Shown here piece by piece: positions 3,796 through 59,419 of a stretch of DNA of 64,000 nt. The translations under genes were made by a program, and so were the position numbers. The DNA is from Phycisphaera mikurensis NBRC 102666 (GTDB lineage: Bacteria; Planctomycetota; Phycisphaerae; Phycisphaerales; SM1A02). The notes beneath the pieces were generated by a model, which saw only the letters and a program-made list of their open reading frames with translations, was not told the DNA's origin and did not search any database. Location: positions 1 to 64,000 of the forward strand of contig CAMDUB010000010.1 of the NCBI GenBank assembly GCA_945878575.1. The letters are read 5' to 3'. Position 1 is the first letter of the stretch; each line of letters opens with the position of its first letter.

Positions 3796-5061
3796 ATGGA
3801 CGGTGAAGACCACATTTTCCGCGAACGCGCCGTTGACTCCGCATCGAGTCCGGAGAGCATCAACCGTGTAGCTCCGATAGTGTCGGCACGCCTGTGGTTG
3901 TTGCTCGCGGGTGCCGGCGCGGTGGTTGCAACGTTTACCGTTTGGGGATTCTTCGGGTCGATTTCGTTGACTGTCCGCGGTACCGGAATCTTGATCGAAG
4001 GCTCAATGGTCATGGCGGCGGAAGCGCCTGCCGATGGCCGCATCGGTGATTTCTTAGTGAAGCCCGGCGACCGTGTTGTGCAAGGGCAAGTGCTGGCGGT
4101 GGTTGCGAATCCACTTTTGGAAGCACAGCGGATCGACGCCGAAAATGCCGCGGCACGATTACGCGAGCAAGATGCCAACCTGACCGCGGCAGAAGATGTG
4201 GCCACTGCTGCGTTCACTGCATCAATGGATATCCGCGAAAGTGAATGTCACCACCGCATTGATCGTGCCGCAGCCATCGCTTTTGAATTCAATCAGGCTG
4301 TTGACGCAAAGCGAGATCGAGTACGCCAAGGATTGCTACCAGAGTCTGAATTGCTGACGATTGCCAACGCAACACTGGAGATCGAACGGTCACTTTCTGA
4401 AGCACGGAGCGAATTCCTCCGCATTCAGGCCGATCGTACGGAAGCCAGCATTCGTCGCCAGCAAGATCGGCAGCGTCGCGAGAATGTCATTTCCGATGCA
4501 GATGCCTTGATTGGTCAACTGGCAGCGCGTATGTCAGCCGAACAAGATGTCATTGCGCCGCGCGCAGGCAAGTTGGTACAGCTCACTGTCAGTCCGGGCG
4601 ATGTAGTTCACAAAGGCAATACCGCAGCAATCATTTCTGATGCTGGCGATAGCCGCCTGCGCTGCTACGCATTCTTTCCGCTTACGGAAGGCAAGCGTGT
4701 TCAAAGGGACATGCGCGTGCACGTTGAACCATCGATTGCGGATCGCGAACGATTTGGAGTGATCAGTGCTGTCGTGCGTGACGTTGATCCAGTGGTTGGA
4801 ACGCGGGAGAGTTTCCTTCGCATTATCAATAGTCCAGAATTCGCCCAAGACATGGAGCAACGCGACGATGGAACTGTGTCGGCGGTCATTGACCTCACAT
4901 TGGACCCCGCTGCCCCAACCGGATTGCGTTGGACAGGTGGAATTGGTTACCCCAAGCAACTCACGCCCGGCACGCTCTGTGACGTTGATGTTGTGACTGC
5001 AGACGTGGCGCCGATTTCTCTCCTCATTCCATGGCTCAAGCAGGCTTTCGGTGGTCGATGA
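3796..5061 (+). CDS. HlyD-family membrane fusion protein, NHLM bacteriocin-system secretion protein type
   Basis: Single N-terminal TM, biotinyl-lipoyl-like segments (EAPADGRIGDFLVKPGDRVVQGQVLAVV and APRAGKLVQLTVSPGDVVHKG) separated by a coiled coil; first gene of a three-gene exporter cassette. Confidence 0.82.
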   Translation: MDGEDHIFRERAVDSASSPESINRVAPIVSARLWLLLAGAGAVVATFTVWGFFGSISLTVRGTGILIEGSMVMAAEAPADGRIGDFLVKPGDRVVQGQVLAVVANPLLEAQRIDAENAAARLREQDANLTAAEDVATAAFTASMDIRESECHHRIDRAAAIAFEFNQAVDAKRDRVRQGLLPESELLTIANATLEIERSLSEARSEFLRIQADRTEASIRRQQDRQRRENVISDADALIGQLAARMSAEQDVIAPRAGKLVQLTVSPGDVVHKGNTAAIISDAGDSRLRCYAFFPLTEGKRVQRDMRVHVEPSIADRERFGVISAVVRDVDPVVGTRESFLRIINSPEFAQDMEQRDDGTVSAVIDLTLDPAAPTGLRWTGGIGYPKQLTPGTLCDVDVVTADVAPISLLIPWLKQAFGGR

Positions 5062-7366
5062 ACCCACTCGAAGCATCCCTTCGCCTGGCGGAGGTACCAC
5101 TGCAGTGACGGACGCAGCGCCGAAATCTCCAGTACTTCAGACTCCTCGCGCTGTGGCGTTTCGACCCTCAGGACTGCGGGTCGTGACTGCACCAACCATC
5201 GTGCAGATGGATGCGGTGGAGTGTGGAGCTGCATGCTTGGTGTCCATTCTTGCATTTCACGGACGGCACATTGCCATTGAGGAAGCGCGGCGCGTGTGCG
5301 GCGTCAGCCGTGATGGCAGCAGCGCGTTGCAGCTCACCGCTGCAGCGAGCAACTACGGACTGAAGTGCGAGGGTTACGGTGTTGACAGCGCTGAACTGCG
5401 AGATTTGCAACTCCCCGGGATTCTTTATTGGGGGTTTGACCACTTTGTGGTGCTCGAAGGATGGAGCCGCGGTCGGTGGCGGATCATGGATCCATCCATC
5501 GGCCATCGTTGGGTCAGCGCCGCGGAGTTCGATGAGAAGTTCACTGGCGTTGTGCTGGAATTATCACCAACTGCGGACTTCCGCCGTGGCGGACGGACCC
5601 GCGGGGTTCGCGAAGCATTAGTGGAGCGGATGCGTGGTTCCTGGCGCGTAGTAGCGGCCACCGCGGCGTGCGGAGTCTTGCTGGCGATTCCTGCCTTTAC
5701 GCTTCCCGCGCTCGGCGCTGTGTATGTCGACCGCGTCCTTCTGGAAGGAGCGAACGGTTGGATCTTGCCCATGGTCCTGCTGGCCCTTGCGGCCATGGTG
5801 GTGAGCGCAGTGCTTGCGTATGTTCAACAGCAGCTACTCGCCAAGCTTGAACAGCGTCTGGCTGTTACCGGTGCGGCTCGATTCTTTGATCACTTACTTC
5901 GGCTTCCAGTTGATTTCTATTCGCATCGTTACACCGGCGATATTGTGCAGCGCCTGGATGCTGTTGAACTATTGGCAGAGGCATTTGCATCAAAGATTGC
6001 CCCTGCGCTCGTCGGGCTGCTCACGTCGACGCTGTTCATCATTGCACTGTTTGTCATTGATAAGCACCTCGCCCTGATAGCAACGGGCATCATTGCTGCC
6101 GTCATTCTGATTGTGATTCGATCGGGGCGCGCACTGGTCGATCGCACGCGGACGCTGGAAAAAGACATCGGTCTTGGTGCTGGAACACTCTCTGCTGGCC
6201 TTACTGCTATTGAAACTGTGAAATCCGCGGGGCGCGAGAATGATCTCTTTGCACGCATCGCGGACGCCAATGCGCGCACCGCAACATCCGCGCAGGCGCT
6301 CGAAGGCTTATCAACGAAACTCACTGCAGCGCCAGAATTCTTAGTTTCTCTCCTGGTTTCTGCCATTGTTCTGGCCTTTGGCGGCTGGCAGGTCATGCAG
6401 GGACACATCACTATTGGTTCGTTGCTGGCATTCCAGGCCATCTTGGTTGTTGCCATGGGACCGGTGTTGGAACTTGCTTCGCTTGGACAGGAAATTCAAA
6501 CACTGAACGCCACTATGGCGCGCATTGACGATGTCCTCCGTCATCCGCGCGATCCATTGGCGTTGCCAGTCGAGCCAGTCGAGCCAGTCGAGCCAGCTCA
6601 CGGTGCAGAAGTATCCGTGCCACACCAAGAGGCTGCGCCGGCCGCTGGCGCCTTGGAATTCCGCAATGTTGTGTTTGGCTACAGCGAAGCGGATGAACCG
6701 CTGATCCGCGATTTCACTTTGCGGATTGCACCTGGTCATCGGGTTGCCATTGTGGGCGCTACTGGTTCCGGCAAGAGCACGGCCGCCAAGCTTGCATCTG
6801 GCCTCTATCTGCCATGGTCTGGTGAGGTACTCATTGATGGTCGCCCACTCGCTTCGATTCCGCGCCATGAGCGTGCCACAGCCATCGCAGTGGTCGGGCA
6901 AACGCCAATTCTCTTTGCCGCCAGCCTGCGCGACAATCTGTCCATGTGGGACCCGCTCATTCCCGATTTATGGATGCGAGAAGCAACCGACGATGCCGGC
7001 TTAGCTGGATTGATTGAGGCGCGTGGTGGTCTGGGCATGATGATTGCCGAAGGTGGCATCAACCTCTCGGGCGGCGAAGCGCAGCGCGTAGAAATTGCTC
7101 GGGCACTTTCGCGTCGCCCCTCCATCTTGATTCTTGATGAGGCCACATCGTCCCTTGATGCAACCACCGAATCGCAGATCGACCGCGCGCTTCGTCGGCG
7201 CGGCTGCGCGTGCTTGGTCATTGCCCATCGACTGAGCACCATTCGCGATGCAGACGAGATTGTGGTGCTTGACCGTGGAACAATCGTTGAGCGCGGTTCG
7301 CATGCTGAACTCATGGCGCTGAACGGTGCATATGTTGCCTTTGTTCGTGGTGGAGGGCAGGGCTAA
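5051..7366 (+). CDS. ABC transporter with N-terminal C39 (double-glycine) peptidase domain, NHLM-system ABC1 type
   Basis: C39 motifs QMDAVECGAACLVSILAFHG (catalytic Cys), DHFVVLEGW (His), IMDPSIG (Asp); TM domain; Walker A GATGSGKST; signature LSGGEAQRVEIARAL. GTG start overlapping the previous gene by 11 bp. Confidence 0.92.
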   Translation: MVDEPTRSIPSPGGGTTAVTDAAPKSPVLQTPRAVAFRPSGLRVVTAPTIVQMDAVECGAACLVSILAFHGRHIAIEEARRVCGVSRDGSSALQLTAAASNYGLKCEGYGVDSAELRDLQLPGILYWGFDHFVVLEGWSRGRWRIMDPSIGHRWVSAAEFDEKFTGVVLELSPTADFRRGGRTRGVREALVERMRGSWRVVAATAACGVLLAIPAFTLPALGAVYVDRVLLEGANGWILPMVLLALAAMVVSAVLAYVQQQLLAKLEQRLAVTGAARFFDHLLRLPVDFYSHRYTGDIVQRLDAVELLAEAFASKIAPALVGLLTSTLFIIALFVIDKHLALIATGIIAAVILIVIRSGRALVDRTRTLEKDIGLGAGTLSAGLTAIETVKSAGRENDLFARIADANARTATSAQALEGLSTKLTAAPEFLVSLLVSAIVLAFGGWQVMQGHITIGSLLAFQAILVVAMGPVLELASLGQEIQTLNATMARIDDVLRHPRDPLALPVEPVEPVEPAHGAEVSVPHQEAAPAAGALEFRNVVFGYSEADEPLIRDFTLRIAPGHRVAIVGATGSGKSTAAKLASGLYLPWSGEVLIDGRPLASIPRHERATAIAVVGQTPILFAASLRDNLSMWDPLIPDLWMREATDDAGLAGLIEARGGLGMMIAEGGINLSGGEAQRVEIARALSRRPSILILDEATSSLDATTESQIDRALRRRGCACLVIAHRLSTIRDADEIVVLDRGTIVERGSHAELMALNGAYVAFVRGGGQG

Positions 7367-10023
7367 TGCTCCACAGTGCGGCAACGATCTTTGTTGAATT
7401 GGGAAGCAAGCAGCGGGACGTTGACGGCCGCGACCACATGGATTTGGGCTCCGAACCGCGCGCGCTCGCTGTCGCCGCGGGCATGGTGAGCGTGTTTGTT
7501 GCTCGCCGAACGCCTGATGGAACGCCGGGGCGCCGTGTCTATCTTGGAACCGTGGCGCCTGGTGGAGTGCTTCCATCACTGCTGACGCATTTGCAGGGAG
7601 CGGACACCACGCTTGTTGCTGTGCCCGATGGCCGCGCCAAAGTAGTCACGGCGCCGACCCGTGGTCCGGGCGTTGAAGAGGCAATAGCCGACGGCACCGA
7701 TGCATTTGCTCGGGTCATGCTGCCGATTGATGCGCGCTTCACCGCTGAATTCGAAAGTGATCCACTGCGAAGATTGCTTGAGTATGCCAACAGGCTTGCG
7801 GCCACGGATGCCGCCGCCATGGCTGACGCTGCCCGCGGCAGATCGCATCAATCAGCCGCACTACGCGATCGCTACGCGCGCATGCTCGAATCGGTCTTCA
7901 GTGATCACAACGAAGTCCTGAGTATTGATCCCCATGTCGACCCGCTGCTCCGTGCGTGCCGTCACGTTGCCGTTGCGGCTGGTGTTCCGCTGGCAAGTAT
8001 CCCGCGCCGCATTCCGGACGATTCCATGCTGGCGTCAGCGGAGTCGTTTGCACAGGCGGCGCGTATTGGATGTCGCCACGTGCGACTCTCGGATGAGTGG
8101 TGGAAGGGCAACTTCGGACCGCTTCTGGTGACCGCGCTCGATGGAACGCCGGTAGCGCTGGTACCCGGTCGTTGGAGCGGCTATCGCGCGGTTATGTATC
8201 TGCCCGACCAGGCTCCGCGACTTTGCAAGGTCGACGCAAAGCAGGCCGCGTTGCTGCATCGAACCGCGGTGGTATTTGCGCCGCCATTGCCAGTCGGAAC
8301 AGTCACGCTGCGCGCCTTGTTTGCCTTTTTGCTGCGCGGCTCAGCGCATGATCTTTGGCTAGCTGCACTGGTTTCGCTTGCGGCCAGCGTGCTAAATCTG
8401 TTGATTCCATTCGCTACTGGACTCTTGGTGAGTCGGGTCATTCCGGGTAGCGATCCAGTCTCACTTCTACACCTTGGACTGGTGCTTGCTTCCGTGCTAT
8501 TTGCCGTCGCCGCTTGCGAACTGGTGACGCGCTTCCTTCTGCTCCGCACCGAGACCCGCGCCATGATGCGTGGTTCATCTTCGATCATTCTGCGCGCACT
8601 GCAATTGCCACTTTCGTTCTTCCAGAAGTATTCAGTTGGAGATCTTGCACAGCGGCTGAGTGTCATTGAGGAAGTACAACGTCGCGTTACCGGAACGATG
8701 GTGGTCTCAGTGGTGAGCGGGGTATTCTCGCTGACGTATTTGCTACTCATGGCAGCCATTGATCCGCTGGCTGCCGCCGTATCGGCACTGCTGTTCCTGG
8801 TGGTCTTTACTGTCACCGCCGTTGTTGCAGGTCGTCAAGCGCGGTTCGCCGCTGATGCCGCGGAACGGAGTGGAAAGCTCAGTGGTTTCTCGCTGCAATT
8901 GCTCGACGGCATTGATCGAATCCGTACCACCGGGACTGAAGAGTACGCCTTGCTGCAGTGGTTGCATCGCTACCGCCCCGAGCGCCGTGCCATGTACGGC
9001 GCCGCCATTGTGGGTGCGCAATTGCGCGTGCTTGCGGTCGCTGTGCCATTTGCTGCCGCCGCGTTCTTATGGTGGCGCTTCGGTGCCATCGCTGGCGGTA
9101 AAGAAGTGCAAGTTCCGGCATTCATTGCGTTCAATGCCGCATTCCTCGCAGCACTTGCTGCGATCACTTCATTTGGTTACGCCATCGGCGACATTTCTCA
9201 AATTGCGCCTTTGATGGGTCGATTGTTGCCGATTCTTGAAGAACGTTCCGAGTCCGATCCCCGAGCAGAAAGCGCCGGGCCACTCTCTGGCGGCTTATCA
9301 ATTCAAGGCATTCGATTTGCCCATTCGGGTTCCGCAGACGAGGTACTCCGAGGCGTTTCCATTGAAGTTGCCGCTGGTGATTTCATCGCCATCGTCGGTG
9401 CATCGGGAAGCGGAAAGTCCACGCTTGCACAGTTGCTACTGGGTTTACGACGACCGACTGCCGGCAAGATTCTCTTTGACGGCAAGGACCTGGCGAAGTT
9501 GGATCTAGTCTCGGTGCGTCGACAAATCGGCGTAGTGGGGCAGCACGCACGCGTCATTCCGGGAACGGTATTGGAGAATATTGTGGGGGCCGCGCTTCTT
9601 TCCAAAGAGGAAGCGTGGGCTGCAGCGGAGGCTGCTGGATTTGCGGAAGACATCCGCGAAATGCCCATGCAGATGAGCACCTTCGTCAATGAGCACACGC
9701 TGTCTGGCGGGCAACTGCAGAAGCTGTTGATTGCGCGCGCACTGGTCACTCAGCCGCGCATCCTCTTGCTTGATGAGGCCACCAGCGCGCTCGACGAAGT
9801 TTCACAAGCATGTGTCTCGCGCAGTTTGGAAGAGCGCAAGGTCACTCGCATTGTGATTGCCCATCGCCTGAGCACCGTGCGCGCTGCCGATTGCATCTAT
9901 GTGCTCTCGGCCGGGGAGGTGGTTCAGGCCGGACGCTTTGATGACCTGGCGTCCGCCGAGGGACCGTTCCGCGAATTGGTGCGGCGACAACTGCTTGAGG
10001 CAGAGTGCCCCTCAGTGGTCTAA
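7366..10023 (+). CDS. ABC transporter permease/ATPase with divergent N-terminal domain, NHLM-system ABC2 type
   Basis: About 300-aa divergent N-terminal domain, TM domain, Walker A GASGSGKST, signature LSGGQLQKLLIARAL, LLLDEATSALD; TAATG junction with the preceding C39-ABC. Confidence 0.88.
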   Translation: MLHSAATIFVELGSKQRDVDGRDHMDLGSEPRALAVAAGMVSVFVARRTPDGTPGRRVYLGTVAPGGVLPSLLTHLQGADTTLVAVPDGRAKVVTAPTRGPGVEEAIADGTDAFARVMLPIDARFTAEFESDPLRRLLEYANRLAATDAAAMADAARGRSHQSAALRDRYARMLESVFSDHNEVLSIDPHVDPLLRACRHVAVAAGVPLASIPRRIPDDSMLASAESFAQAARIGCRHVRLSDEWWKGNFGPLLVTALDGTPVALVPGRWSGYRAVMYLPDQAPRLCKVDAKQAALLHRTAVVFAPPLPVGTVTLRALFAFLLRGSAHDLWLAALVSLAASVLNLLIPFATGLLVSRVIPGSDPVSLLHLGLVLASVLFAVAACELVTRFLLLRTETRAMMRGSSSIILRALQLPLSFFQKYSVGDLAQRLSVIEEVQRRVTGTMVVSVVSGVFSLTYLLLMAAIDPLAAAVSALLFLVVFTVTAVVAGRQARFAADAAERSGKLSGFSLQLLDGIDRIRTTGTEEYALLQWLHRYRPERRAMYGAAIVGAQLRVLAVAVPFAAAAFLWWRFGAIAGGKEVQVPAFIAFNAAFLAALAAITSFGYAIGDISQIAPLMGRLLPILEERSESDPRAESAGPLSGGLSIQGIRFAHSGSADEVLRGVSIEVAAGDFIAIVGASGSGKSTLAQLLLGLRRPTAGKILFDGKDLAKLDLVSVRRQIGVVGQHARVIPGTVLENIVGAALLSKEEAWAAAEAAGFAEDIREMPMQMSTFVNEHTLSGGQLQKLLIARALVTQPRILLLDEATSALDEVSQACVSRSLEERKVTRIVIAHRLSTVRAADCIYVLSAGEVVQAGRFDDLASAEGPFRELVRRQLLEAECPSVV

Positions 10024-10088: not shown

Positions 10089-10238
10089 TCAGCGCTTCTT
10101 CGCACCCAAATTGACCGCCTTGGGGTTCACTCGACCGCTACTTGCCTTGGCTAAGCCCGATGGCTTTGCACCTGGCTTGGCTCCACCGCCCTGCACAGAG
10201 GCGAGGTCATTTGCTTGGAGTTTCTTGTTATCCGTCAT
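10089..10238 (-). CDS. Putative double-glycine-leader secreted peptide (49 aa), candidate substrate of the adjacent C39 exporter
   Basis: Translated by hand on the minus strand: MTDNKKLQANDLASVQGGGAKPGAKPSGLAKASSGRVNPKAVNLGAKKR*. Leader LQANDLASVQGG matches L(-12)...[E/D](-8)L(-7)..[I/V](-4).GG. SD-like AAGGGA upstream; an in-frame ATG at 10256 would add MKGKNQ. Absent from the ORF track, whose shortest entries are 60 aa. Confidence 0.75.
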   Translation of the reverse strand: MTDNKKLQANDLASVQGGGAKPGAKPSGLAKASSGRVNPKAVNLGAKKR

Positions 10239-10302
10239 TTGGTTCTTTCCCTTCATACGAGCCGCGGCGCACTGGGGTACCTGCCCAATGGAACGCCTGT
10301 CA

Positions 10303-10320: not shown

Positions 10321-10370
10321 CGGGGGCCAACACAATCGCCATTTGTGGAATTTGCCCTTAAAAAGAACAA

Positions 10371-10407
10371 CCCCCCGGAGGCGTGTAACTCCAGGGGGCG
10401 TTTGTTT
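10371..10407. terminator. Bidirectional intrinsic terminator-like hairpin
   Basis: CCCCCGGAG-gcgtgtaa-CTCCaGGGGG, followed by CGTTTGTTT on + and by TTGTTCTTTTT on -. Confidence 0.6.
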
Positions 10408-10703
10408 CTCCGCGCAACCCTGCCGGGCGCACGAAGGGAGTGGTTTGCAGAGCGCGATGGCGGGCACCTTTCGGCGGTGCATCGTTGCTCCTCTTCTATC
10501 AACGCAAGTTGGAGGCTCCACCCATCACTGAATGTGCCAAAGTGAAGAAATTCTTCCAATTTGGAGCAGTACCAGTGATTCGGTACGCGCCCCATTCGCG
10601 CCTATGAAGGTGTCCGAAGGGTTTGCTGATAACGGACTTCATATTGCCCCTTTTCTCCGATTCTGCTGCAGCCACTCTTACGAGCGGATCGCGCAAGATC
10701 GGT

Positions 10704-12807: not shown

Positions 12808-13341
12808 TCACACCGCAGCGCGCATCGGTACGCAGCTTGTTGACTGCCCAACGCGCAAGACCAGCGGACCATTAAAGGTCTCGGCACGAAGCAAGAATCG
12901 GCCAGTGGTGAAGACCATCGGGTGCATGACTGGATCGCGTGCGGTCAGGTCCGGGATCACCAGCTGTCCAAAAGCGTCAAGAATCGACACCTGCGAAGAC
13001 TGGCGACCACATATGGCCCAGGCATCAAGCGCAATGGCGCCGCCTTCCGTGACGATCCACTCCACCTCAAGGGTGGCACGATCGTGGCCGGAAAGCGTGG
13101 CATGCATGAGTCCGGGTGCAAGGTCAAGGCACACGCTTCCAGGGGTGCCGTACGGCCGCAATTCAAAGCGGCGGTCCCCATCATTGATGCGAAGTAGTTC
13201 CCGTCGAACCAGCGATTCACCACCCACCATGATCGAAGCCTCGGCCGCGAGAAACATCATTCTCATGGATTGGGCAGAACCGGGGATTGGAATGGTGTGG
13301 GGATGCACTACATACTTAAACACGAGATTCAGAGACGCCAA
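12808..13341 (-). CDS. Hypothetical protein
   Basis: 177-aa ORF filling an otherwise empty interval with protein-like composition; no family recognised. Confidence 0.4.
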   Translation of the reverse strand: MASLNLVFKYVVHPHTIPIPGSAQSMRMMFLAAEASIMVGGESLVRRELLRINDGDRRFELRPYGTPGSVCLDLAPGLMHATLSGHDRATLEVEWIVTEGGAIALDAWAICGRQSSQVSILDAFGQLVIPDLTARDPVMHPMVFTTGRFLLRAETFNGPLVLRVGQSTSCVPMRAAV

Positions 13342-13429
13342 CCATCACGCAGTCGTCCAATTCCGTCATGGTTTGGCACATTGTTCCTTAATAATTGAAC
13401 CCCGACACTCTGGCGCGAGTTTATTTCAC

Positions 13430-13526
13430 CATTCCTGAGATTCCATGATGGGTGCGGGGACTGATTTACGTTTCTGTCTGTAGAGGCGTTCGCCGCCGTT
13501 TATTTGGTGGCAAGCCTTGCCCCGAT
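13430..13526 (+). ncRNA. Possible structured leader/attenuator RNA upstream of serC
   Basis: Pairing potential CGGGG...CCCCG enclosing GGCGttCGCC; directly followed by an intrinsic terminator about 50 bp before the serC start. Confidence 0.3.
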
Positions 13527-18246: not shown

Positions 18247-18711
18247 TCAGGCCTTTGGAGGAGCGGGAGGTGCTGGTGGAGCTGGAGGAGCTGGAGGAGC
18301 ATCGCCGCCCTTGCCGCCCGGAGGAGGACCGCCTGGTCCGCCTTGCCCGCCCGGTCCGCGGCCACCTTCGCCGCGACCTCGGCCCTTGGCACCCTGACGC
18401 AGTTCCTCATCGGAGATCTTGCCGTCGCCGTTTTTGTCAGCGCCCTTCATGCGTTCCCACGCCTTGGCCGGAACTTCATCCTCAGTGATGAAGCCGTCGC
18501 CATTCTTGTCGAGCGTCTTAAAGTCTGGACGCTTGCGACCTTCACCACCTTCGCCACCGGGACCTTGTCCGGGACCGCCTGGTCCACCTGGTCCCTTGGG
18601 CGGTGGTGGGGGCTGGTCGCCGCCCGCTGGGGGCTCAATTGCCACCGCAGTGGCTGCGAGTGAAAGTGCGAGGAATGCGGGTGCGATACATGTGAATGTC
18701 TTTGTGTTCAT
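18247..18711 (-). CDS. Secreted Gly/Pro-rich EF-hand protein
   Basis: Signal peptide; two EF-hand loops DKNGDGFITEDE and DKNGDGKISDEE flanked by GGPGGPG and PPAPPAPPAPPAPP low-complexity tracts. Confidence 0.8.
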   Translation of the reverse strand: MNTKTFTCIAPAFLALSLAATAVAIEPPAGGDQPPPPPKGPGGPGGPGQGPGGEGGEGRKRPDFKTLDKNGDGFITEDEVPAKAWERMKGADKNGDGKISDEELRQGAKGRGRGEGGRGPGGQGGPGGPPPGGKGGDAPPAPPAPPAPPAPPKA

Positions 18712-18932: not shown

Positions 18933-19367
18933 TTACCTGCCTGCACCGCCTGGCCTTCCAGCCCCGCCTGCACCTGCTGGTCGACCGGGCTTGCCTGCAC
19001 CGCCGGGGCCACGTGGGCCACCGGGTTCACCGGCGCCACCAGGACCAGCGGGACCAACCCCACCAGGACCAACCGGCTTTCCAGGCTTACCAGCATCACC
19101 AGGACCAGCGGGACCAACCCCACCAGGACCAACGGGCTTTCCAGGCTTACCAGCATCACCAGGACCAGCGGGGCCAACCCCACCAGGACCAACGGGCTTG
19201 CCAGGCTTACCAGCGTCGCCAGGACCAACCGGGCCGCCCGGCTCGCCAGCGCCAGCTGGGTTCTTCGGGGCAACTTGACCAGTCCCAGCTTGCGACGCAA
19301 ATGCCACACTCGTGCCGGCGAACACGCAGGCAAGAAGGGTTGGAGCAACGCGAATGAATGAAGCCAT
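18933..19367 (-). CDS. Secreted collagen-like Gly-X-Y repeat protein
   Basis: Signal peptide MASFIRVAPTLLACVFAGTSVAFA followed by uninterrupted GXY triplets (GDAGKPGKPVGPGGVGPAGP repeated). Confidence 0.75.
   Translation of the reverse strand: MASFIRVAPTLLACVFAGTSVAFASQAGTGQVAPKNPAGAGEPGGPVGPGDAGKPGKPVGPGGVGPAGPGDAGKPGKPVGPGGVGPAGPGDAGKPGKPVGPGGVGPAGPGGAGEPGGPRGPGGAGKPGRPAGAGGAGRPGGAGR
19036..19226. repeat. 60-bp tandem repeat array within the collagen-like gene
   Basis: Near-identical 60-bp units at 19081-19140 and 19141-19200, with partial/diverged copies on both sides. Confidence 0.9.
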
Positions 19368-19467
19368 GAGATCGAAGTTCCTTTCAGGGGTGCGATTCAG
19401 GATGTGCATGAACAATACCAACGATAGTTGCTTTCATCGACTTTCGGGGGACAGAGCCAAAACGAGC

Positions 19468-58315: not shown

Positions 58316-58541
58316 GTCAATAATCACCTTGAATTGCCCGTGCGGGCCACAAAGCACGAGGTTACAGGACACAAGCGCTGTATTTTGAGGACATCCCGTG
58401 ATGGGTTGGGGGGGCAGATTCCGTTTACTAAGGTGTTGCCCGAGTTTCTGTGGAGAAGTTGGAGTTCTTCACAGAAGCCTTGAGTAACGGAGGATAAGAC
58501 GCGCAGCATTCGTTCCTGCGCGGGGATATGGGCCGCTCGCC

Positions 58542-58606
58542 GACGGGTTCGGCTGTGTGTTGACGTGTGCCAAGGAGCCGAGTGTTCCTGCCACCCGTCA
58601 AAGGAG
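58542..58606 (+). promoter_or_regulatory. Structured 5' leader abutting the SD of the PEP-CTERM-like gene
   Basis: GACGGG(58542)...CCCGTC(58599) enclosing TCGGCT(58549)...AGCCGA(58581), directly followed by AAAGGAG SD. Confidence 0.4.
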
Positions 58607-58615
58607 TTGATTCAT

Positions 58616-59419
58616 ATGTTTACCTCTTCTTTTGTTTCGCGGCTCGCTGCACCCCTCGCCATTGGACTGATCGCCGGATCGGCAAGTGCTGACTTCCTGG
58701 GATGGACCGCCAACGTGCGTTCGGCCACTAACGGTGGCTACCTAGTCAACGTCTTCGCCGTCACCAGTAGCGCGACCGACCGGCTCTTCAACGTTTACGG
58801 CTCAAACGCAAGTTCGCCGAACGCTGGCTACATCCAAACCACTTCCACGGGTGGATTCCTTCAGGGAACTGGTACCCAAAGCGTCTTCGCCGCCGAGGAG
58901 TTCCAGAACTGGACTTCCTCCGACAGCTTCCTGACGATCAGTTCGATACTCGATGGTGGCGATTGGCTCGCGAACAGCGCGACCATCGGTGATCCGACTT
59001 GGAACGTGACCTACACAACCCTCGCCGGCCTGTCTAAAACCGCCAACAGTTTCAGTGTCCGCTCAGGTTCTTTCACCAATAGTGAATTCGTCAATCCGAA
59101 CACGCACTCGGTGCCAGCGACTGCAGGGTTCTACTTGGCGGGATCCGCAGCAGAGGCCGTCAGCATTGCATCGCTGACAAACCGGGTAGCCAGTTCAACG
59201 CCGGACGCTGCTGCAGGAACATTGGGCATCATGGTGGCACAGCTACACATGAGCGAACTCAATCTGGACTGGAGGATGGGCGCGACTATCGGTCGAGGCA
59301 ACGGCACGGCTGACCAGAAGACATTCTCCTTGCAGATTGTCCCCGCGCCAGGAGCAATCGCGCTTCTTGCGATCTCTGGTCTGCTGTCAGGAGCGCATCG
59401 TCGCAGATCCGTTTGTTGA
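58616..59419 (+). CDS. Secreted protein with PEP-CTERM-like sorting tail
   Basis: Signal peptide (IGLIAGSASA); C-terminal VPAPGAIALLAISGLLSGAHRRRSVC. Confidence 0.7.
   Translation: MFTSSFVSRLAAPLAIGLIAGSASADFLGWTANVRSATNGGYLVNVFAVTSSATDRLFNVYGSNASSPNAGYIQTTSTGGFLQGTGTQSVFAAEEFQNWTSSDSFLTISSILDGGDWLANSATIGDPTWNVTYTTLAGLSKTANSFSVRSGSFTNSEFVNPNTHSVPATAGFYLAGSAAEAVSIASLTNRVASSTPDAAAGTLGIMVAQLHMSELNLDWRMGATIGRGNGTADQKTFSLQIVPAPGAIALLAISGLLSGAHRRRSVC

Follow-up and report, generated by a model that had tools for sequence, protein, structure and literature searches.

A conserved planctomycete polycation with a double-glycine leader, very probably the dedicated cargo of an adjacent NHLP-type exporter

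Introduction

Peptidase-containing exporters of the NHLP type usually serve RiPP precursors, and the exporter locus considered here faces a minus-strand frame of only 49 codons, short enough for annotation to miss. The question raised by this locus is whether that frame is a gene, whether its product is what the exporter carries, and what a peptide of such composition might do once released. An earlier note on the window (the whole stretch of DNA analysed, 64,000 nucleotides) had proposed a C39-processed, exported cationic peptide and had offered three functions for it: antimicrobial, DNA- or polyanion-binding, and signalling. A definite cargo for an otherwise orphan NHLP-type exporter would be of interest in itself, as would the retention of such an exporter across genera for one short unmodified polycation. 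The peptide is moreover easily synthesised, which makes its cleavage and binding directly testable. The features of the locus are collected in Table 1.

Table 1. Features of the peptide locus in the window
Feature	Position	Strand	Basis or remark
HlyD-type adaptor (NHLM_micro_HlyD)	3796-5061	+	TIGR03794, 211.3 bits, above cut-off 156.2
C39 peptidase-ABC subunit (NHLP ABC1)	5051-7366	+	TIGR03796, 798.5 bits, E 4.9e-240, below cut-off 853.3
C39 peptidase domain	5192-5575	+	PF03412, E 2.1e-33; Q52, C58, H131, D147
Second ABC subunit (NHLP ABC2)	7366-10023	+	TIGR03797, 671.3 bits, below cut-off 709.4; convergent with peptide gene
Precursor peptide gene	10089-10238	-	49 aa plus stop; translation, homologs, substitution pattern, synteny
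Predicted mature polycation	10092-10184	-	31 aa; translation, composition count
Double-glycine leader	10185-10238	-	18 aa; alignment of homologs
Shine-Dalgarno-like AAGGGA	10248-10253	-	about 9 nt before the ATG; purine-rich counterparts in relatives
Conserved RNA element	10362-10443	-	11-bp hairpin, 11-bp terminator-like hairpin, T-rich tail; upstream of peptide gene
Promoter-like motif GTGATGG-N15-TGCGTT	10501-10528	-	reads towards RNA element and peptide gene

Results

The precursor gene and its product

Translation of the minus-strand frame gives exactly MTDNKKLQANDLASVQGG followed by GAKPGAKPSGLAKASSGRVNPKAVNLGAKKR and a stop codon, in full agreement with the 49-residue double-glycine precursor that the earlier note had described: L-12, D-8, L-7, V-4, G-2 and G-1 are all present, and a recount of the 31-residue core returns six Lys and two Arg (charge +8), with no Asp, Glu or Cys and no aromatic residue. 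The start was placed at 10238 by comparison with relatives, although an in-frame ATG occurs at 10256. No other small ORF in the window has a strict double-glycine leader. In order-1 random sequence of the window's length and composition such ORFs average 0.28 per 64 kb; in 60 trials not one combined a net charge of at least +6 with the lack of acidic residues. Five independent pairs of relatives show 49.0 synonymous changes over 181.8 sites against 32.0 nonsynonymous changes over 550.2 sites, that is, nonsynonymous changes are more than 4-fold rarer per site, and dN/dS lies between 0.03 and 0.2 in most pairs. The reading frame is thus under purifying selection, the coding pattern that the earlier note had named as a check, and on these comparative grounds positions 10089-10238 are a real gene.

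Conservation of the leader, another check named there, was followed through 16 aligned homologs. Gly-Gly is kept in 16 of 16 and L-12 and L-7 are nearly invariant, while position -8 is Asp or Glu in most and Ala or Ser in a few, and position -4, Val in the window peptide, is Ala in one related genus (g10). The window leader carries the complete pattern of a PCAT (C39) substrate (L-12, D/E-8, L-7, V/I-4, Gly-Gly), and in the structure of LahT150 with a leader the side chains at -12, -7 and -4 occupy the C39-domain groove (PMC6363468). The cores diverge strongly in sequence between homologs while their polycationic composition stays constant: all those examined are 20-43 residues long with a net charge of +6 to +9 and no Asp, Glu or Cys, almost without aromatic residues, with 4-13% large hydrophobic residues and with a low maximum hydrophobic moment (0.23-0.37, where magainin 2 and buforin II, taken as yardsticks, lie at 0.63-0.65). 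Such composition suggests a disordered polycation, with no membrane-active helix. Searches of the peptide against Pfam and NCBIfam gave no match at cut-off, the sole hit being a sub-threshold one to TIGR03949 (17.3 bits against a cut-off of 21.5, E 0.0031) that covers the leader region only.

The exporter facing the peptide gene

HlyD, ABC1 and ABC2 together make up an exporter trio of the NHLP type, a point absent from the earlier note. TIGR03796 and TIGR03797 are the best-matching models for ABC1 and ABC2 and match over their full length, and ABC1 can be aligned along its whole length with PCAT1 (4ry2) and ComA (8hf4). The Cys/His/Asp triad that had been claimed for the transporter is indeed kept, C58, H131 and D147 being invariant, together with Q52, across 11 exporters. 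The claim that the peptide gene adjoins the exporter holds for the locus and fails for the C39 subunit itself, which ends 2.7 kb away; the direct neighbour is ABC2. In seven relatives ABC2 is followed by a TolC-like outer-membrane gene some 600 codons long (loci cited: L034, L036, L037, L052-L054), so the type I secretion route is complete there; no outer-membrane channel gene occurs at the peptide locus in the window's own sub-lineage (G000, G303, G247).

Distribution and linkage

A protein search (tblastn) of 301 genomes of the order returned clear homologs in the window's genus only, where 12 of 14 genomes carry the peptide, 11 found directly and the twelfth (G302) by reading the sequence. 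The two remaining genomes are incomplete, one contig ending inside ABC2 and the other assembly showing no exporter. Matches of this first search outside the genus (E 0.01-1) were set aside as chance low-complexity matches. Synteny recognises family members where sequence search fails: in genera g10, g14 and g17 (exporter identity to that of the window 44-51%) the place after ABC2 is again taken by a small convergent ORF of the double-glycine kind whose core is basic, and these homologs were then confirmed by profile. A profile built from 16 sequences and run against 181 genomes of the family (E up to 0.01) finds the peptide in 39, always as one copy, confined to four genera (12, 18, 7 and 2 genomes) and with nothing outside them at that threshold. 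Within this clade the single-copy peptide is near-universal; its carriers are planctomycetes, several labelled Phycisphaerales and many of them lake MAGs.

Linkage to C39-ABC genes, for which the earlier note had called, is seen in 30 of 30 fetched loci across the four genera: in each, the peptide gene is convergent with ABC2 alone or with ABC2 followed by the outer-membrane gene, and this arrangement persists although other flanking genes differ between loci. Within the window's genus a block of ECF sigma factor, kinase and a gene of unknown function is inverted in three genomes (G138, G307 and G302; loci L037, L054, L055), with the peptide staying beside the exporter. The peptide-bearing exporters form one clade (support 100/99), and none of 13 loci with more distant exporters carries such a peptide. 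Among eight genomes, no Nif11-leader precursors (TIGR03798) were found at E up to 0.1; for NHLP-leader precursors (TIGR03793) the count was zero of eight in a search that matched nowhere, controls included.

The upstream region

Between the promoter-like motif and the peptide gene lies an RNA element of about 80 nt that is restricted to the window's genus, with one full match, at the peptide locus, in each of 12 of the 14 genomes. The copies are 87-100% identical, and none of the 22 base pairs is broken in any of the 12 sequences. Rfam gave nothing near threshold, and the element was not taken for a short ORF, since what is conserved is its DNA and pairing. An attenuator is one candidate role for it, a small RNA another. 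With its terminator-like hairpin placed between motif and peptide gene, transcription from the motif may make only a small RNA or an attenuated leader.

Each of the 12 genus loci compared has the motif in this position, with minor variation. Allowing up to one mismatch, a genome holds 12-24 copies, where a reversed control gives 0-2. At 13 of 31 sites examined a secreted protein with an exosortase-type tail is encoded within 260 nt downstream, as against none in the reversed test, and four of the 31 sites precede the peptide. The tails of these signal-peptide proteins (C-terminal VPAPGALALLG...RRRR) score at or below the TIGR02595 cut-off, and each of five genomes searched encodes one exosortase above the TIGR02602 cut-off. 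When a promoter matrix was trained on 14 protein-gene promoters, with the peptide promoters left out, the peptide promoter was the top or second match in nearly every locus. In the window's genus the peptide gene has the shared upstream motif of a PEP-CTERM/exosortase regulon; the motif may mark an ECF-type regulon, with the linked ECF sigma factor as a plausible regulator. Further sites in the window lie at 58398-58425 (+), 13321-13348 (-) and 13445-13472 (+), and others at loci L249-L278; one in the window precedes an exosortase-type secreted-protein gene at 58565-59419. An ancestral origin of the shared promoter was examined in g10, where the peptide promoter differs and has no second site in the genome; this uniqueness leaves ancestral co-regulation with surface proteins unsupported.

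Neighbouring genes

The peptide locus of the window's genus is adjoined by genes for an ECF sigma factor and a Ser/Thr kinase, neither of which was seen at the loci in g10, g14 and g17. The kinase matches LanL/LanKC and TOMM kinase models in its kinase domain only and far below cut-off. Among the neighbours scanned there is no RiPP maturase and no histidine kinase or other recognised receptor; non-exporter neighbours differ across genera, and no conserved candidate immunity gene is found beside the peptide. One neighbour, a conserved gene of unknown function at 12808-13341 (-) whose long ORF is overlapped at its start by the motif, was considered as an immunity protein and set aside, not being found at the loci of other genera; its product gives an all-beta AlphaFold2 model (pLDDT 81.5) with only weak PDB matches, several of them to carbohydrate-active proteins. 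Two small ORFs further along, at 18933-19421 (-) and 18247-18711 (-), encode one a signal-like start followed by collagen-like GPG/GKP repeats and the other EF-hand-like DKNGDG motifs with a G/P-rich tail.

Discussion

The adjacent NHLP-type exporter is very probably dedicated to this peptide as its sole cargo, a reading that rests on the unbroken linkage, the well-supported exporter clade, the single copy, and the lack, among the genomes and neighbours scanned, of a Nif11 leader, a maturase or a conserved immunity gene. The peptide is almost certainly trimmed by the C39 peptidase and secreted, as judged from the comparative evidence, and the released form is probably unmodified. The C39 domain of ABC1 would bind the leader helix through L-12, L-7 and V-4 and cut after Gly-Gly, whereupon ABC1/ABC2, HlyD and an outer-membrane channel would carry the peptide out. 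The freed 31-mer, an unmodified and disordered polycation, would most likely stay in the envelope or extracellular matrix and there bind acidic polymers, be it exopolysaccharide, glycosylated surface proteins or DNA. A charge that is constant while the sequence drifts is best explained by a polycation of this kind, and the promoter motif that the peptide gene has in common with exosortase-type proteins points, in the window's genus, to the extracellular matrix; PEP-CTERM-like proteins have been tied to exopolysaccharide in other bacteria (PMC1569441), and overexpression of one such protein restores floc formation in an Aquincola mutant (PMC9850573). We assign the role of matrix polycation tentatively, and consider the account as a whole, from dedicated cargo through C39 cleavage and export in unmodified form to binding of envelope or matrix polyanions, about evenly poised between right and wrong. 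More speculative is its extension to the clade, in which exported short polycations would be structural or adhesive parts of the matrix, neither weapons nor RiPPs, delivered by an NHLP-type exporter of their own, and in which one genus would have placed them, by way of a conserved RNA leader or attenuator, under the control of exosortase-sorted surface proteins.

Where an exported double-glycine peptide belongs to the core of its species, it is often a signal, and a secreted pheromone or regulator of biofilm, comparable to ComC, BriC and VP1 and sensed by an unlinked receptor, is an unlikely but serious alternative. The near-universal, single-copy occurrence of the peptide agrees with it, as do the sigma factor and kinase next door in the window's genus; neither of these turned up at the loci of the other three genera, however, no recognised receptor or histidine kinase adjoins the peptide, and a composition that holds while the sequence drifts is unlike that of receptor-matched pheromones. 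In pneumococcus BriC and VP1 promote biofilm; core genes there encode the signalling peptides CSP, BriC and BIP, and accessory ones the bacteriocins BlpM and BlpN (PMC7595303), a division that keeps signalling the main rival. An unmodified antimicrobial, akin to class II microcins or bacteriocins and perhaps directed at nucleic acids, we hold somewhat less likely still. Leader, peptidase-ABC, HlyD and (in relatives) outer-membrane channel do make up a class II microcin export architecture, the peptide is cationic and its leader weakly resembles those of class IIb bacteriocins; yet that resemblance stays below cut-off, and a conserved single-copy core gene under purifying selection, showing no patchy spread, with no immunity gene travelling beside it (an unlinked or unrecognised one is conceivable) and with a core devoid of amphipathicity, disfavours a bacteriocin.

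A RiPP precursor with its maturase encoded elsewhere would suit an exporter of this type and a core rich in Ser, Thr and Lys, and is nonetheless improbable given a core without Cys, a leader far shorter than NHLP or Nif11 leaders, and scanned neighbours that include no maturase and a kinase far below the relevant cut-offs. That the product is a ribosome- or DNA-binding protein retained in the cell, with Gly-Gly arising by chance, is hardly credible: its composition resembles basic ribosomal or histone-like tails, but the invariant Gly-Gly, the conserved residues at -12 and -7 and the constant exporter linkage all speak against it. The proposal of a C39-processed, exported and apparently unmodified cationic peptide thus gains support from leader conservation, coding pattern and linkage, and of the three functions put forward at the outset polyanion binding is strengthened by composition and, in the window's genus, promoter context, the antimicrobial role is weakened and signalling stands. 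If the matrix role is true, double-glycine export would be a route to bacterial surface building, beyond signals and weapons.

Comparison with known systems

Exporter and leader are of known kinds, while for the cargo family neither NCBIfam nor Pfam gives a match at cut-off, and a literature search found no description of this family, of its planctomycete clade or of its composition. Like NHLP/NHLM systems (TIGR03794, TIGR03796, TIGR03797), the locus has a three-gene HlyD-ABC1(C39)-ABC2 exporter with full-length model matches; unlike them, it has an ABC1 and an ABC2 that score slightly below the equivalog cut-offs, with HlyD above its own, and the peptide carries a short classical double-glycine leader where those systems have the NHLP or Nif11 type, with no adjacent maturase and one precursor per genome. 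With class II microcins and the class IIb cerein 7B family (TIGR03949) it shares an unmodified double-glycine precursor, peptidase-ABC export and a weak likeness of leader, but its core is far more basic and poor in large hydrophobic residues, and it is a core gene under purifying selection, unaccompanied by a conserved immunity gene. Pneumococcal CSP, BriC and VP1 are likewise short, core, PCAT-exported peptides, some of them acting on biofilms (PMC7595303), whereas the present peptide has no recognised linked receptor, a Gram-negative-type exporter and a polycationic low-complexity core. Finally, although the peptide bears neither the signal peptide nor the C-terminal sorting signal of PEP-CTERM/exosortase proteins, and although GTGATGG-N15-TGCGTT is not of the sigma-54 type that characterises the motif of proteobacterial PEP-CTERM genes (PMC1569441), its gene in the window's genus lies downstream of the same promoter motif as the members of that regulon.
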